The notes below the pieces were generated by a model. It saw only the letters and a program-made list of their open reading frames with translations. It searched no databases and was not told the DNA's origin. A program made the position numbers and the translations under genes. Below are positions 54,313 through 61,577 of a stretch of DNA of 64,000 bases, piece after piece. The stretch comes from an uncultured Lachnospiraceae bacterium (GTDB lineage Bacteria > Bacillota > Clostridia > Lachnospirales > Lachnospiraceae): assembly GCA_949155905.1 (NCBI GenBank), contig CASCWU010000002.1, positions 1-64,000 on the forward strand. Reading direction: 5' to 3'. Each line of letters opens with the position of its first letter. Positions within the stretch are counted from its first letter, which is position 1.

Positions 54313-55224
54313 TTATTCTGATTCCTGCTCTTCTCCAAAGTCAAAGTCAAAATACTGACTGTTATTTTTGACCGCGCCGCCTCCAGGTACATTTTCTATA
54401 AAGAAAATAGTGACTACACCAACCTCTTTCCCACCTCTCTCAATACGTTTTACGGCACTGGTTTGAACACTGATGCCACGTCTGTCTGCATAACCTGCGC
54501 TGCAGGTAGGCACTTCCCATTCTTCCGGTTCCCGAAGATCCTGAACCGCATACCCTTCATAACTTCCCTCTTCCATTTTCTGTTCCAATTCTGATATCGG
54601 TATTCTTACCGGATCCAGTTCTTCCTCTATTCCCCATATAAAATCCTTGGCAGCCTCAAAATCTGGAAACAAAATCGACATCGTTCCTCTCAAAAACTGA
54701 TTCTTGTAAAACATATAGGTAAAATTCCCGACTACTTCCGGTTCCTCTTCCATCACCACCTCATAGAAGATCAGATTCGTCGTCGCTCCATTATCCGTTA
54801 CCTTTATTTCCGGCTGCTGCTCTGTCAGAGCCAACCGTTTCTCCATAATGTCATAGTCCGCGGTAATGGTAAAACCATCAAACGTAAAACCTTCTCCATC
54901 CTGAAAGGCTCCTCTAAAAAATTCCAGAGGCCTGCTGGAAAGCTCCGGATCTGGTGTGCCAGGATCTGGTTTTGGTGTGTCTGCTTCATTGTTGTTTGAT
55001 GGATCTGCTTCTGTTTGAGAATCGTTTTCTTCTGGTTTCGTTTCTTCCAATTTGCTTTCTTCTTGCGTGTTTTTTTCTTGTGTATTCCCTTCCTGCTTAT
55101 CCTCTCCCTGTGTATCCTCCACTTGTTCCTTTTCTTCCTTTGGAGCATCTTTTCCCTTCGTCCCACAGGCAGACAAGATAAATACAAGTACTAAAAAAAG
55201 AAGAAACCTTTTTTTCTTTTTCAT
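54313..55224 (-). CDS. Lipoprotein of a tandem paralogous family (copy A)
   Basis: A 303-residue lipoprotein: MKKKKRFLLFLVLVFILSAC gives signal and lipobox (LSAC), followed by an 80-residue Glu/Gln/Thr/Lys-rich linker with repeated QE/TQE units. The conserved globular part is shared with copies B and C: PLEFFRGAFQDGEGFTFDGF, YMFYKNQFLRGTMSILFPDF, and the end ISVQTSAVKRIERGGKEVG then FFIENVPGGGAVKNNSQYF. I recognise no known domain. The protein should sit on the outer face of the membrane. It is last in the cluster. Confidence 0.85.
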   Translation of the reverse strand: MKKKKRFLLFLVLVFILSACGTKGKDAPKEEKEQVEDTQGEDKQEGNTQEKNTQEESKLEETKPEENDSQTEADPSNNNEADTPKPDPGTPDPELSSRPLEFFRGAFQDGEGFTFDGFTITADYDIMEKRLALTEQQPEIKVTDNGATTNLIFYEVVMEEEPEVVGNFTYMFYKNQFLRGTMSILFPDFEAAKDFIWGIEEELDPVRIPISELEQKMEEGSYEGYAVQDLREPEEWEVPTCSAGYADRRGISVQTSAVKRIERGGKEVGVVTIFFIENVPGGGAVKNNSQYFDFDFGEEQESE

Positions 55225-55302
55225 ATAGCCTTCTCCTTTCTCTATCCAATATCCACTCCAACTTCCAAAGGTTCTACAATCTTAGTGGTCATCGTTTTTG
55301 TT

Positions 55303-55588
55303 CCAATCAACCAGAGGATGGCCAGCGAGGCTCACAGATTTCCTCTAAAACTTTTGCCTTTCCTTCTTCCTGTTCTAAATACATTGTATAAGTCTCGTTT
55401 ACAAAATCGTCTTCTACAAAAGAACCTTTGCCTCTCTACTGTTAGTTCAGATGTTTCTGTTTTATTTGAGCTTTTTCGATTTTCCTTCTCTTTTCCATCC
55501 GTTTCGCTGAACCGTTCGATTACGAAACCACCCGCAAAAGACAACAGTATTGCTAGTATCAATACCAGTATAAAACTTTTTTCTTCAT
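55303..55588 (-). pseudogene. Degraded copy of the 57454-58116 membrane protein gene
   Basis: Aligned with the intact copy, this remnant keeps the start, the helix (FAGGFVIERFSETDGKEKEN) and fragments of the middle and end. Visible lesions: an A7 run after the ATG is A6 (frameshift); about 181 bp is missing between two CTCACA hexamers; about 190 bp is missing between two CTCTC-type repeats; and the stop codon position is altered. Flanking non-coding sequence is also shared with 57365-57480, so the whole module was duplicated before decay. Confidence 0.85.
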
Positions 55589-55640
55589 CATTCTTAACCT
55601 ATCCGTGTATGAAACAAAATACATCATCCTATATTTTGTT

Positions 55641-56363
55641 TTACTCTGACTCCTCTTCAAAATCAAATTCAAAATATTGACTGTTATTTTTCGCCGCCCC
55701 TCCTCCAGATACGTTTTCTATAAAGAAAATAGTGACTATCCCAACCTCTTTCCCACCTTCCTCAATACGTTTTACTGCGCTGGTTTGAATACTGATGCCA
55801 CGTCTGTCTACATAACCAGCACTATATGCGTAAGGTTCCCATGATTCTGGTTCCCGAAGCTCGCTATAGGTATAGCCATCATAATTCTCTATCTGCTCCA
55901 ATTCCTCGACTGGTATTTTTACTGTATCCAATCCTTCTCCTGTTTCTTTTACAAAGTCTTTTGCGGATTCATAATTAGGAAACAAAATCGACATACTCCC
56001 TCTTAGAAACTGTTCCTTATAAAACATATATACCACATTTCCCACTACTTCCGGATCATCCATCGGCGATACCTTATAAAAGGTCAAAATCGTGGTGTTA
56101 CCATTATCTACCAGCCTAATCTCTGGCTGCTGTTCGGTCAAAGCAAGCCGTTCTTCCATAATTTTATAATCTGCGGTAATCGTAAAGCCATCAAAAGTAA
56201 AACCATGTTCGTCATGAAAAGATCCTCTGAAAAATTCCAGTGGTTTGGAGGAAAGTTCCGGATCCGGCTCGTTTGGAAGTTGCTTCTTATCCGCTTTCAT
56301 TCCACAGGCTGAAAGAAATAATATCACTATCATAAATAAACAAATATTATAGTTATATTTCAT
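55641..56363 (-). CDS. Lipoprotein of the tandem paralogous family (copy C)
   Basis: A 240-residue lipoprotein with signal and lipobox LSAC (CLFMIVILFLSACGMKADK) but only a very short linker instead of the acidic linker of copies A and B. The globular part is close to copy A: PLEFFRGSFHDEHGFTFDGF, YMFYKEQFLRGSMSILFPNY, AGYVDRRGISIQTSAVKRIE, FFIENVSGGGAAKNNSQYF. The function is unknown. It stands between the degraded gene and the copy B region. Confidence 0.85.
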   Translation of the reverse strand: MKYNYNICLFMIVILFLSACGMKADKKQLPNEPDPELSSKPLEFFRGSFHDEHGFTFDGFTITADYKIMEERLALTEQQPEIRLVDNGNTTILTFYKVSPMDDPEVVGNVVYMFYKEQFLRGSMSILFPNYESAKDFVKETGEGLDTVKIPVEELEQIENYDGYTYSELREPESWEPYAYSAGYVDRRGISIQTSAVKRIEEGGKEVGIVTIFFIENVSGGGAAKNNSQYFEFDFEEESE

Positions 56364-56436
56364 TTCTGTGATCCTCCCTCTCTTTCTTTTTATAAAAAAA
56401 CTGCCCTTTTTGACTTTCCTTTATAGATTATGATTT

Positions 56437-56499
56437 CTAAGAAGGCTTCTGCTCCTTTGGCTCCTCCACTTCAACGTCAACATACTGGCTGTTATTTTT
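56437..56499 (-). pseudogene. C-terminal remnant of another lipoprotein paralogue
   Basis: Immediately past the stop of copy B, in another frame, the DNA reads KNNSQYVDVEVEEPKEQKPS and then a stop. This matches the family's C-terminal KNNSQYFDFDF end. It is best explained as the tail of a further paralogue lost by recombination. Confidence 0.7.
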
Positions 56500-57364
56500 T
56501 CTCTTCAAATTTAAAATAAAGACTGTCATTATTTACCGTCCCGCAACGGCTCACATTTTCTGAAAAGAAGATAGACACCTGCCCTTTTCCTTCCTCTGTG
56601 ATATGAGCGTCCATTTGAATTGCAATATTACGTTTATCCAAATACATAAAAAGGCAAGAGTTTTCTCCTTCCGTTTTAGAAAACTTCCCTTCCGGATCCT
56701 CTACACTTACAGACATTAGTTCCAGATCTTTTTCCTTTAAAAATGCTACCGCACTTTCATAATCCGGAAATTCAATCGTCATTCCTCCATTCATAAACTG
56801 TTTTTCAAAAAAATTATAACGAATGAGTGTCCCAACAGCTTCTGGATATCCGGGTATAGATATCTGATAAAAGTCTACTGTTTGAGTGAAGCCTTCCCAT
56901 TTCCTGGACACTTCCTGCTCTACAAGCCGTGGAGCTACCTCTGTTTCTGTCAACTCCATCCGTTTTTCAAAGATCTCATAATCGGACATCAGGGTAAAAC
57001 CGTCAAACGTAAACCCCTCTTCATCATGGAACGAGCCGCCGAAAAATTCCAGAGGTTTGCCGGAAAGCTCCAGATCTGGTGTGCCAGGATCGGGTTTTGG
57101 CGTATCTGCTTCGTTGTTGTTTGATGGATCGGGTTCTGTTTGAGAATCGTTTTCCTCCGGTTTCGTTTCTTCTTGTTTTTCCCCCTCCTGTTCCCCTTCT
57201 TCCTGCGTATTTTTTTCTTGTGTATCCCCTTCCTGCTTATCTTCTCCCCGCGTATTCTCCACCTGTTCCTTTTCTTCCTTTGGAGCGTCTTTTCCCTTCA
57301 TCCCACAGGCAGACAAGATAAATACAAGTACTAAAAAAAGAATAAACCCTTTTTTCTTTTTCAT
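56492..57364 (-). CDS. Lipoprotein of the tandem paralogous family (copy B)
   Basis: A 290-residue lipoprotein. Its signal peptide and acidic linker are nearly the same as in copy A (ATG at 57364 with AAAGGAG upstream), and PLEFFGGSFHDEEGFTFDGF is conserved. The globular part then diverges: YNFFEKQFMNGGMTIEFPDY, DKRNIAIQMDAHITEEGKGQ, FFSENVSRCGTVNNDSLYF. So copies A and B share N-terminal halves more closely than C-terminal halves, as expected after recombination among paralogues. Its end overlaps a tail remnant in a different frame. Confidence 0.85.
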   Translation of the reverse strand: MKKKKGFILFLVLVFILSACGMKGKDAPKEEKEQVENTRGEDKQEGDTQEKNTQEEGEQEGEKQEETKPEENDSQTEPDPSNNNEADTPKPDPGTPDLELSGKPLEFFGGSFHDEEGFTFDGFTLMSDYEIFEKRMELTETEVAPRLVEQEVSRKWEGFTQTVDFYQISIPGYPEAVGTLIRYNFFEKQFMNGGMTIEFPDYESAVAFLKEKDLELMSVSVEDPEGKFSKTEGENSCLFMYLDKRNIAIQMDAHITEEGKGQVSIFFSENVSRCGTVNNDSLYFKFEEKK

Positions 57365-57453
57365 ATAGACTTCTCCTTTCTCTATCCAATATCCATACAA
57401 AATCCACCCCAACTTCCAAAGGTTCTACAATCTTATTGGTCATCGTTTTTGTT

Positions 57454-58116
57454 TCAATCAGCCAGAGGATGACCAGCAAGACTCACATATTCCTTTGGAG
57501 TAAACATAAATTCTATTACATGAAAATAGACTTCATTGAACTCCTGTTTCATCCAAATAATCTGAATCTGATTTCCATCTTCATCCTCATAAGTACGATT
57601 TCCAGTATCATTTTGATACTCTTCTCCCCCCTTTGAATCTAATTTATTCAGCTTCTGCAAAGCCTCACAGGTTTCTTCTAAAACTTTTACTTTTCCTTCT
57701 TCCTTTTCTAAATACATCGTATAAGTCCCGTTTACAAAATCGTCTTCTACAAAAAGAACCTTTACCTCTCCGCTGCCTTCCTGTCCCTTTAAGGTATCTC
57801 GAAACTCCACCAACCTTTGATTTTCCTCTCTATAGTGGTTGGTCATCATATACGTTGTTGGTCTCTCCGCTTCCAGTCTGGCCTCAAATGTCCCCCACTT
57901 TACTCCATTCATTTCCCAAAAATCATATCCTGTCTGATCTTTTTTCACAAGGCTTGGACTCTCTGCTGTTAGTTTAGATGTTTCTGTTTTGTCTGTATTT
58001 TTTCGATTTTCTTTCTCTTTTCCATCCGTTTCGCTGAATCGTCCGATTACGAAACCACCTGCAAAAAACAGCAGGATTGCTATTATCAATACCAATATAA
58101 AACTTTTTTTCTTCAT
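57454..58116 (-). CDS. Small membrane-anchored protein of the duplicated module
   Basis: A 220-residue protein with one N-terminal helix (FILVLIIAILLFFAGGFVIG) and an extracytoplasmic part with DKTETSKLTAESPSL, YDFWEMNGVKWGTFEARLEA, VLFVEDDFVNGTYTMYLEKE and a C-terminal FHVIEFMFTPKEYVSLAG. No known domain is recognised. The frame opens at 58242, but the ATG at 58116 follows AGAGGAGA and begins the signal-anchor. It is the first gene of the lipoprotein cluster and lies 89 bp upstream of copy B; a degraded second copy lies before copy A, so the pair membrane protein-lipoprotein was duplicated as a unit. Confidence 0.8.
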   Translation of the reverse strand: MKKKSFILVLIIAILLFFAGGFVIGRFSETDGKEKENRKNTDKTETSKLTAESPSLVKKDQTGYDFWEMNGVKWGTFEARLEAERPTTYMMTNHYREENQRLVEFRDTLKGQEGSGEVKVLFVEDDFVNGTYTMYLEKEEGKVKVLEETCEALQKLNKLDSKGGEEYQNDTGNRTYEDEDGNQIQIIWMKQEFNEVYFHVIEFMFTPKEYVSLAGHPLAD

Positions 58117-58196
58117 TTTAATTTCTCCTCTTCTCCTCATTAAAACCATTTTTTCTGTAAATCTATTCCCAATACTTCCTATCAAATTTACATAAT

Positions 58197-58238
58197 GCCT
58201 CCTATTGGATATAAAACACTTTTTACCTAATAGGAGGC
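58197..58238. repeat. 10-bp inverted repeat before the lipoprotein cluster
   Basis: Perfect arms GCCTCCTATT (58197-58206) and AATAGGAGGC (58229-58238) with a 22-base loop lie between the stop of the secreted-protein gene (58272) and the cluster start. It may be a terminator for that gene, but no T run follows in either direction, so a regulatory dyad is also possible. Confidence 0.5.
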
Positions 58239-58271
58239 TCAACCTTGCTTATACTTTCTTACAAAATGCCA

Positions 58272-59114
58272 TTAACCATGAAATTTTAATGAGTACATTC
58301 CTGCCTTTTTCATATTTCCGCTCTTATCATAATACGTAAGCTGCATGTTAATTCCTCCATTATGATTTACACCATCCGTAAATCCCATTACAGATCCAGA
58401 CGGAAATGTACTAAAATATGCAAAATACGTTTGATTAGGACTTGCATATGCCTGATTAATTGTAGCACTACAGGAATAATTTTTATAAGTTGGTTTCAAT
58501 AACACATCATCTGTAGTCAAGCAACTTGGATAAGAATATAAATTTCCAAAAAGGTCATAACTAATATATAAAATTGCATTCTTTCCTAAGTCTACATCTC
58601 CAGACGAGGTCTTTTTCCATGAACCGCTAACACTTGCTGGCAAAACAAATCCCATATTACCATAAGGCAAATTTTGCTTATATGTACTATAAGTTGCTGT
58701 TGCAGAAAGTATCACGTCACTATTACCTTGAGAAAAAGGCGTAGATGCTCTTGTCACTTTTTTAGCTTCCCAATATTCAAACGAATTCACCAACTCATCT
58801 TCCTCTTCATCCATCACATACGGCACATAATACGTTACTTCTGTAAATCCCTCCTCATCCACCGTCTCGCTCTTCACCGCTTCCGGCACCTGAGTAGAGC
58901 GTCCCATGGCATCTGTCTGATAGACCAGCTCTGTCTCTTCCTGCTTCAGTCCATATTCCTCCACGACCTCCTGCCAGATCTGTTCCACCGCAGACGTCTC
59001 TGGAGCTTCTTTTGCCTCTGCTGCCCTGGCCGGAATACTTCCTGCTGCACATACACAGGCAAACGCCAATGCCCCTGCCAATAACCTGCTGCCTGCCTTC
59101 TTTCAATTTTTCAT
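58272..59114 (-). pseudogene. Secreted protein gene with TGA at codon 4
   Basis: The natural start appears to be the ATG at 59114, 8 bases after AAAGGAG, but the frame reads Met-Lys-Asn-stop (TGA at 59103-59105). After the TGA the same frame continues with KKAGSRLLAGALAFACVCAA, GSIPARAAEAKE, a complete signal peptide, then ~245 residues to the stop. The mature part has an acidic helical start (QIWQEVVEEYGLKQEETELV) and a beta-rich Tyr/Asn/Gly-rich C-terminal half ending AGMYSLKFHG. A TTG at 59081 could start a shortened signal peptide but lacks a good ribosome site. No family recognised. It is likely the output gene of the adjacent regulator locus. Confidence 0.7.
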
Positions 59115-59242: not shown

Positions 59243-59248
59243 ATTATA
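59243..59248 (-). promoter_or_regulatory. -10 element of the secreted-protein promoter
   Basis: Leftward TATAAT within GGTATATAATGG, about 130 bp from the ATG. The -35 position (near 59266-59271) is a poor hexamer and overlaps the 21-bp inverted repeat, which suggests activator- or repressor-controlled transcription. Confidence 0.5.
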
Positions 59249-59266
59249 TACCACTTCTTCTTTCTT

Positions 59267-59326
59267 GACTATTACAGAACTGGCAAGATCAAAAATTTTT
59301 CATAACTTGCCAATTCTGTAATAGTC
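59267..59326. promoter_or_regulatory. 21-bp inverted repeat between divergent genes (candidate operator)
   Basis: Arms 59267-59287 and 59306-59326 are complementary over 21 bp with one mismatch (half-site GACTATTACAGAAYTGGCAAG), separated by 18 AT-rich bases. It lies between the leftward secreted-protein gene and the rightward peptide ORF, next to the -10 of the former. Both the length and the position fit a two-site operator for the HTH regulator encoded at 59589-61577. Confidence 0.65.
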
Positions 59327-59400
59327 CTTTTCTACAGGATGTAGTATAGTAATCTCATATCTTACAGATGACACTTTATTATACAAGGAGGATTTGACTT

Positions 59401-59592
59401 ATAAACAGAAAACTGAAAAAATTCGTATCTCTTAGTATTTTCTTGGTATGGCTATTTCAGGCCGTCTTTTCTCCAATCAGCAACGGAGAAACCGTCCCGG
59501 ATGGCACTCCGCCGCAAAGCGCTCCGGGTAACGGTATTCCTCCTATTGCCCGTTTTCCTGGCTGGGGAGACGGCGGAGATGATCGGAGTTAA
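59401..59592 (+). CDS. Candidate secreted signalling peptide precursor (63 codons, ATA start)
   Basis: A small ORF missed by ATG-based calling. A perfect AAGGAGG (59385-59391) stands 9 bases before an ATA codon at 59401, which opens a 63-codon frame. Its N-terminus is basic (NRKLKKF), followed by a hydrophobic stretch VSLSIFLVWLFQAVFS and a Pro/Gly-rich C-terminus ending PPIARFPGWGDGGDDRS. This is the layout of an exported pro-peptide; there is no Cys. The stop overlaps the convergent regulator's stop by 3 bp. ATA is a very poor start; either translation is minimal or an ATG was mutated. Alternative start CTG at 59413 would cut most of the basic tail. Confidence 0.55.
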   Translation: MNRKLKKFVSLSIFLVWLFQAVFSPISNGETVPDGTPPQSAPGNGIPPIARFPGWGDGGDDRS

Positions 59593-61577
59593 AGTTCCAA
59601 CTCTACCCCGCAAATTTCCATACAATATTTTTTAAGATGTCCTTGCCCCTCTTCATCGCCTGACCATATTGCTGCTGCATAGGCCATACGAAACAGGGCA
59701 AGGCATCTTTCTTTTTGCTCTTCTCCCTTCTGGCCTATATAAAGCTCCGGATTCTCAAGCCTCTGCTGCTTCATATTCCAGGCAATGCCAAATAAGCACT
59801 CTGCCATCCTGACGCTGGTCTGCCGTTCCAGCATAAGCCGAATACATTCCTTCCCCAGTTCATTGGATTCCTCATAATACCCGCAGTCCCCCAACACACT
59901 GACCAGAGCAACGATACACAACGTATACTGCTCAATGTCACGTACCAGCCCGCTTCCATCATACTCCAGGCACCTTTTCAGAAAGCGCAGCACCTGTAGG
60001 CTCTCCTCCAGCTTCCCCTGCCGTTTATAACAGGTCGCAAGCTGTTTTAAAATAACGCTTTCGTTCAGCGACAGCATCCCGGCAGGATGCTCTGCCAGCA
60101 GCTTTGTTTCTTCGGTCTTTATCGGCAAACCTGGCAAGGTCATCGCCAATGCCTTTTGCAGTCTGGAAATCCGCTCCTCCAGAGAAATTTTGCGCCGATC
60201 CTCGTTCGGTAAATTTTCCTGTATTGTTGCCTCTTCTATTTCCAGATATTGTCGATTTTGTGTAGTATCTGGCACACGTCCTGCCAACTCCTCCAACAGC
60301 ACCCCTGCCTGCTCCCACCTTCTTTGGTTGATGGCACGCCCCAGAGAGCTTCGCAGCAGGTAATCCTTATGATTTGTTGTAATAATCTCATAATCATACC
60401 GCTCGCCGGACAGACCGACCTGCTGCAGCAATCTTCTCCTGTTCCTTCGCTGCGGTCTGACGGCTTTTTTCTCATAGCGCCAGATACTGGGATCTCCCGG
60501 AACGCCTGTCATACTTTCCTGAGATAGCTTCAACAGCCTTCGACGGCTTTTTAACACCTCGTTCGCGCCATGATTATCATGATTTTCCTCATAGGGAAGC
60601 CAAAGCAATTCCGGCATTTTCACATACTTCCGGATTTCCTGAAATCTTTTTCTTATCCTTTCCGGAGTCTTCTCCTGACTTCCCAAAGCCAGCAAAATAT
60701 CCTGTTCCAGCTCTAAAAGCTCGTCTTGGCAAAACAGCTTTTGCTCCTCCCCCAGCTCGCCACATGTCTCTTGGCACTTTTCCAGCGCCTTTTCTAAACG
60801 TCCGATCTCATAGAATTCTCTGGCTGCCTGACAGGCGGCATACGGGGACACATGAATTCGCTCCTGTCTGTCACGAATATGTACCTTTAAATATTCTAAC
60901 AGCTCCAAATAAGATGTCGGACAAGAAACCGTTTCTTTTTCTGCTATTCCCAGACGCTTGCCTGACTCCAACAGCGCCAGAATCAAATAGATCTCGTTTC
61001 TTCTCAAAAGCAGCTCTGTCAACGGTACTGTTTCAAAGCGCGGCTGCGTCATATGAATGGTTTCTTTTATGAAATCATATAAGGACTCCCTTAGTCCATG
61101 TTCCAGATAATCCAGATTGATCTTCATCATCTGTAAAAACTGCCGTTCCAATGCGCTTTCCTTGGAAAGCCATTTTTTCCCATAGTGACGCTTTCTGTCC
61201 TCCTCATATGCCGTTATCGCCACTTTCGCCGGATCCAGCTTTCCCTCCCGAAGCTGACGGGCAATATTCGTTCGTAACTGATACTCGTTTTCCTCTTCCT
61301 GATCCAAAATCCGTTCAAACATCTCTGCCGAACATCCCAGACGCTCCAACAGAGCATCCAGCAAAAGCTTTTCTGCTTCTCGTTCCCCGCTTTCAATCCG
61401 TGCCAGATGGGATTCACTGCACAATCCCTCTGCCAGCTTTGAGCGAGGGATATTCAAAGCTGTCCGCAATTTCCCGATATAAATCCCCATCCGGTCAGCC
61501 TCCCAGTCAGCCTCCCAGTCAGCCTCCCAGTCAGCCTCCCAGTCAGCCTCTTGTATAGACTTCTCTTCTTGTTTCAT
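59589..61577 (-). CDS. XRE-type HTH regulator with long helical-repeat region (RRNPP-like)
   Basis: A 662-residue regulator. Residues 10-29 are an EADW repeat. Residues ~33-87 form an XRE-type HTH (LRTALNIPRSKLAEGLCSES, HLARIESGERE). From ~100 to the end the protein is helical with paired-helix features like TPR units (YAACQAAREFYEIGRLEKAL; KQLATCYKRQGKLEESLQVL). Residues 341-390 look like a second HTH (LLKLSQESMTGVPGDPSIWR, YEKK). HTH plus TPR-like repeats is the layout of peptide-sensing RRNPP regulators (Rgg, PlcR, PrgX), though those are usually ~300 residues. It converges with the peptide ORF. The ATG has AGGAGA 8 bases upstream. Confidence 0.8.
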   Translation of the reverse strand: MKQEEKSIQEADWEADWEADWEADWEADRMGIYIGKLRTALNIPRSKLAEGLCSESHLARIESGEREAEKLLLDALLERLGCSAEMFERILDQEEENEYQLRTNIARQLREGKLDPAKVAITAYEEDRKRHYGKKWLSKESALERQFLQMMKINLDYLEHGLRESLYDFIKETIHMTQPRFETVPLTELLLRRNEIYLILALLESGKRLGIAEKETVSCPTSYLELLEYLKVHIRDRQERIHVSPYAACQAAREFYEIGRLEKALEKCQETCGELGEEQKLFCQDELLELEQDILLALGSQEKTPERIRKRFQEIRKYVKMPELLWLPYEENHDNHGANEVLKSRRRLLKLSQESMTGVPGDPSIWRYEKKAVRPQRRNRRRLLQQVGLSGERYDYEIITTNHKDYLLRSSLGRAINQRRWEQAGVLLEELAGRVPDTTQNRQYLEIEEATIQENLPNEDRRKISLEERISRLQKALAMTLPGLPIKTEETKLLAEHPAGMLSLNESVILKQLATCYKRQGKLEESLQVLRFLKRCLEYDGSGLVRDIEQYTLCIVALVSVLGDCGYYEESNELGKECIRLMLERQTSVRMAECLFGIAWNMKQQRLENPELYIGQKGEEQKERCLALFRMAYAAAIWSGDEEGQGHLKKYCMEICGVELEL
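61495..61550. repeat. 12-bp minisatellite at the N-terminus of the regulator
   Basis: Four full copies and a partial fifth of the 12-bp unit TCAGCCTCCCAG (61495, 61507, 61519, 61531, 61543) encode the EADWEADW-type tract just before the HTH. Copies appear identical, suggesting recent expansion. Units of 12 bp keep the frame. Confidence 0.9.

Follow-up and report, generated by a model that had tools for sequence, protein, structure and literature searches.

The window analysed here, a stretch of 64,000 nucleotides at the start of a contig of an uncultured Lachnospiraceae bacterium, contains a short frame of 63 codons (59401-59592, forward strand) that converges on a gene for a 662-residue regulator (59589-61577, reverse strand) and is separated by a long inverted repeat (59267-59326) from a divergently transcribed secreted-protein gene (58272-59114, reverse strand). 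The short frame opens with ATA (59401-59403) in the start position, 9 nucleotides behind the Shine-Dalgarno sequence AAGGAGG (59385-59391), and ends with TAA (59590-59592); its translation, INRKLKKFVSLSIFLVWLFQAVFSPISNGETVPDGTPPQSAPGNGIPPIARFPGWGDGGDDRS*, displays a basic N-terminus, a hydrophobic core and a tail without cysteine. The two convergent stop codons have TTAA (59589-59592) in common, and the genes thus overlap by 4 nucleotides. The original prediction had described the layout of the frame with AAGGAGG 9 bases ahead of an ATA in the start position, and its coordinates and translation agree with ours. It is here joined by three further features: the partner receptor, the operator-like repeat and a TGA at codon 4 of the divergent gene.

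Upstream of the ATA, the frame is made up of just CTT (59398-59400) preceded by TGA (59395-59397); hence, the ATA sits exactly in the start position. No ATG, GTG or TTG offers a substitute start for the peptide frame, the TTG at 59394 being out of frame. The genome is represented by a draft assembly of 175 contigs (93.8% complete), of which 400 kb of genome stretches were sampled in a survey of ATA starts. No other credible ATA start was found among 249 genes (464 kb of genome), which led us to reject recoding or a general relaxation of start-codon choice. The peptide and the product of the divergent gene are both without a match in Pfam, NCBIfam and PHROGs.

The tandem receptor and its convergent peptide gene

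The regulator is intact and composed of two fused Rgg/PlcR-like HTH-TPR halves. Its N-terminal HTH matches the Pfam domain HTH_3 above the cut-off; ahead of this domain lies a tandem (EADW)n stretch (about 61494-61550, reverse strand), and the true start may be the methionine at residue 29. When a profile of nine such receptors was compared with solved structures, PlcR was recovered with the C-terminal half (E=7e-13) and Rgg-type regulators with the N-terminal half (E about 9e-7). An AlphaFold model of the 662-residue chain (pLDDT 85, pTM 0.84) places the predicted TPR region of the C-terminal half on PlcR over 212 residues (Z 18.4, 2.3 Å), with PlcR at the top of the ranking. The N-terminal half modelled alone (pLDDT 81.5) also ranks PlcR first (Z 14), at a score that unrelated TPR proteins nearly equal; the rmsd of 10-12 Å across the whole chain indicates that its domains are arranged differently from those of PlcR. 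The HTH of this half superimposes on the DNA-binding domain of ComR at 1.3 Å. Finally, the two halves are homologous to each other in an hhalign profile comparison (99.6% probability). Together with the matches of the halves to PlcR, Rgg and ComR, this identifies the receptor as two HTH-TPR units fused in tandem.

The genome encodes at least nine receptors of this kind; nine full-length homologues, that of the window included, can be aligned over their whole length. In profile searches, 30 of 397 genomes from the family contained homologues; among 391 genomes sampled across the class, four did so, two of which lie outside the family. At the loci L101, L116 and L119, the halves are instead two overlapping neighbouring genes of the usual size, which likely represent the ancestral or a split form. 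Six other receptors of the genome are accompanied at their 3' end by a small ATG-started frame on the opposite strand, and these six paralogous peptide frames combine a Shine-Dalgarno sequence and ATG with lysines, a hydrophobic core and a tail that is mostly proline-rich. The receptor on contig C98, one of the nine, lies near the contig end, and its peptide region is beyond reading.

We then applied a fixed rule that calls for a Shine-Dalgarno sequence with ATG, a basic N-terminus, a hydrophobic core and a convergent stop within -50 to +60 nt. It identified a convergent exported-peptide ORF at 34 of 50 readable receptors and at none of 263 other long genes in this genome; the lone control match came from the receptor of the window, paired with a spurious ORF that also figures among the 34. 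The stop codons overlap by exactly 4 nucleotides, as they do in the window, in 13 of these 34 ATG-started pairs. These counts set the frame at 59401-59592 apart from a chance antisense ORF at the end of a regulator gene. Such an origin would accord with the non-canonical start and with the failure to find an orthologue of the same peptide; given the recurrence of the pair, the shared stop geometry and the strong Shine-Dalgarno sequence, its probability is negligible.

A set of 44 peptide genes was further curated by eye. Geometry and make-up of the window gene are as in the 41 of them that have a usable ATG, and ATA is found in the window gene alone. The other two exceptions also carry start-proximal lesions, namely a one-base frame error in C25, a paralogue within this genome that has seven A behind its Shine-Dalgarno sequence and ATG, and an out-of-frame ATG in one G325 gene, the adjacent receptor of which is frameshifted. 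The run of seven A behind the ATG of the C25 peptide gene (L019:2449-2631) could reflect loss, slippage or phase variation. Homologues lacking coding conservation were to count against the original prediction; the relatives instead keep the coding architecture. Its secreted linear peptide is likewise supported as a precursor of that kind, with ATA replacing the usual ATG. The locus combines a receptor predicted to consist of an HTH followed by a TPR peptide-binding domain with an adjacent propeptide gene in the range of 10-100 aa bearing a putative export signal (63 codons, with stop codons overlapping by 4 nt), as is characteristic of RRNPP systems. We conclude that 59401-59592 very likely encodes the pheromone precursor of a peptide-signalling pair.

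Many of the peptides end in a recurrent (I/V)xP(Q/L)(S/N/D)D-like motif, which is weak in the tail encoded in the window. It was found in 15 of 21 peptides vs about 2 after shuffling and, having been picked after viewing the data, is to be taken as a lead only; it may mark where the mature peptide is processed or recognized. The Pro/Gly-rich tails and variable sequences would also suit exported antimicrobial or structural products that are merely controlled by the neighbouring regulator. We find this improbable because the peptide genes pair specifically with PlcR/Rgg-type receptors, each paralogue having a peptide of its own, and genes for modification or transport are not a constant feature of their surroundings; the C-terminal motif common to the peptides, with the above proviso about its choice, points the same way.

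The inverted repeat and the divergent gene

The inverted repeat has 21-nt arms (59267-59287 and 59306-59326) that are 95% complementary, lies 74 nt upstream of the ATA and is probably an operator between divergent promoters. A sigma-70-like promoter of the divergent gene (TAGTCA-17-TATAAT, 59243-59271, reverse strand), a consensus match only, overlaps the left arm with its -35 element; in the C95 paralogue, it is the -35 of the peptide-gene promoter that lies inside the right arm. A terminator function was considered for the window repeat and ruled out, as it is situated between divergent genes and is not called as a terminator. More generally, repeats with a score >=15 are present in the 220 nt upstream of 27-28 of the 44 peptide genes (the 28 include L031, a dubious case overlapping the Shine-Dalgarno sequence), and their sequence mostly differs between loci. 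Among controls from this genome, a single gene out of 189 scores equally high, and none of 34 divergent gaps does. At about 26 of the 30 loci that could be read, the peptide gene has a divergent upstream neighbour, often encoding a secreted protein, which argues that the repeats are not simply terminators. The repeats of L037, L040, L041, L047, L101 and L104 show CCATGAC-type half-sites common across several genera; others are wholly different. Judging from these sequences, the operators may diversify along with the receptors.

The divergent secreted-protein gene is the probable target. Its ATG (59112-59114) stands behind AAAGGAGC, and it opens with ATG AAA AAT TGA, whereby a stop codon (59103-59105) at codon 4 precedes an open signal-peptide frame. 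No relatives of its product were found in the 397 genomes of the family. Downstream of it, a row of related lipoprotein-like genes (54313-58242, reverse strand) could constitute an extended target region; this row includes the near-duplicates 54313-55224 and 56492-57412, as well as a truncated copy (55332-55562) of 57454-58242.

The two lesions each affect a single base and are separated by about 300 nt in a draft of 175 contigs and 93.8% completeness; both the ATA and the TGA might thus reflect mistakes in assembly or consensus calling, or else alleles carried by a minority of a population that really has ATG. This appears unlikely: the other sampled genes look intact, and the lesions lie in unique sequence away from contig ends.

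Probable weakening or loss of the peptide signal

According to the original prediction, a single G-to-A change would silence the gene. This need not be so, since AUA initiates at a reduced level in other bacteria: in Staphylococcus aureus, AUA with a strong Shine-Dalgarno sequence yields about 10-30% of the initiation seen with AUG (PMC13009471), and in Listeria an ATG-to-ATA change in rsbW lowers translation and does not abolish it (PMC13068326). In this genome, infC seems to use an ATT preceded by AGGAGGTG as its start; hence, AUN starts probably work in this organism. The most that can be said is that the peptide signal is attenuated or silenced; it is probably weak or off while the adjoining receptor is intact.

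The main rival to decay is that the ATA is a fixed, functional weak start that keeps propeptide output low, as in ccpN and infC of S. aureus. The strong Shine-Dalgarno sequence at 9 nt, the intact frame and receptor, the apparent ATT start of the organism's infC and the residual efficiency of AUA in S. aureus (PMC13009471) are all compatible with it. However, 41 of the 44 related peptide genes use ATG and none of the others ATA, there is no second ATA start among the 249 sampled genes, and the divergent target is broken too. We accordingly give the fixed weak start a real but distinctly minor probability.

Most likely, the ATA is the sign of a module in decay, the signal of which was weakened or silenced recently. 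As the divergent gene is broken at codon 4 in addition to the ATA, early decay of a single module is the likeliest course of events; the fully open peptide frame and receptor count against it and would fit a functional weak start as well. The history of the start codon has to be read from related loci: orthologues at E<=1e-40 were absent from the 397 genomes of the family, DNA comparisons with 60 relatives gave nothing beyond a trivial match, a scan of genome contigs returned just a low-complexity (EADW)n match and a scan of viral contigs none. From the paralogues and more distant relatives, we infer an ancestral ATG at 59401.

Taken together, we consider it probable that the product of the frame is the exported propeptide of an RRNPP-like pair of the PlcR/TprA type, that the ATA reduces or abolishes its signal and that the module is in early decay. 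Loss in preference to a fixed weak start is an interpretation; by analogy with the PlcR/TprA class, we infer processing, re-import, DNA binding and the direction of regulation along the following lines. Where the module works, its propeptide would be translated from an ATG, exported and then trimmed to a short linear C-terminal peptide. Upon re-import, this peptide would dock into the TPR domains of the opposite-strand receptor, which may then switch transcription at the inverted repeat and so act on both divergent genes. With two HTHs per chain and arms of about 20 nt, each receptor chain would be expected to read one arm with its two HTHs. In the window copy, the ATA start would have reduced or eliminated the signal output and left the receptor in place.

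More tentatively, and with rather less than even confidence, we propose a family in which two RRNPP units fused per chain read half-sites of about 20 nt in a long palindrome, which may reach nine private copies in one genome and in which the signal gene has been repeatedly muted near its start and the receptor kept. That this family is found mainly in the present bacterial family is a suggestion to be held just as loosely.

Relationship to known peptide-signalling systems

RRNPP peptide signalling is already known as a biochemical kind, and what is new here lies more in the family of tandem-receptor signalling systems than in the ATA. In the literature examined, we did not find the combination of a tandem receptor, a convergent peptide gene sharing its stop and a long palindrome, and the RRNPP literature searched for the word Lachnospiraceae contains no mention of it. 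RRNPP_detector looks for receptors of 250-500 aa and, by default, for ATG-started peptide ORFs (PMC10075063). The receptor of the window has 662 aa, its paralogues have 600-702 aa, and the propeptide starts with ATA; thus, the defaults would miss this pair because of both receptor length (>500 aa) and start codon. If our interpretation is true, one genome of a gut-type anaerobe would harbour up to nine private peptide languages missed by current detectors. The tandem receptor and long palindrome further lead to a direct structural prediction, that of two HTHs per half-site. Moreover, the ATA copy and the frame-broken copy would provide natural examples in which the receptor was retained and the signal weakened or lost ("listeners" without speech), a situation debated in the social evolution of quorum sensing.

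The closest parallels are found among the PlcR- and Rgg-type systems. PlcR-PapR of the Bacillus cereus group likewise has an HTH-TPR receptor adjoined by a small gene for an exported propeptide. However, members of the PlcR subfamily are single HTH-TPR chains that bind a palindromic box as homodimers, and PlcR itself is one unit of about 285 aa, whereas here two units are fused per chain, although a long palindrome is present at the locus. The peptide gene here is also convergent and overlaps the end of the receptor gene, and the repeat arms, at about 20 nt, are longer than the short PlcR box. The TprA receptor is a single unit, and its peptide PhrA is ATG-started. TprA-PhrA and TprA2-PhrA2 of Streptococcus pneumoniae resemble the present pair in having receptor and peptide genes on opposite strands, an exported peptide and a PlcR-type receptor (PMC5436883). 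They differ in their linked lantibiotic genes, none of which were seen here. The Rgg-SHP systems of streptococci are comparable in that the N-terminal half of the present receptor matches Rgg-type regulators in sequence; however, Rgg is a single unit and the SHPs are very short, hydrophobic peptides exported by PptAB, whereas the precursors here have roughly 41-77 aa with signal-like N-termini. As for the start codon, infC and ccpN of S. aureus and rsbW of Listeria offer the same arrangement of a strong Shine-Dalgarno sequence followed by AUA with reduced initiation (PMC13009471, PMC13068326). In those cellular genes the change has been fixed or selected, whereas the ATA described here is found in a signal-peptide gene with ATG-using relatives.
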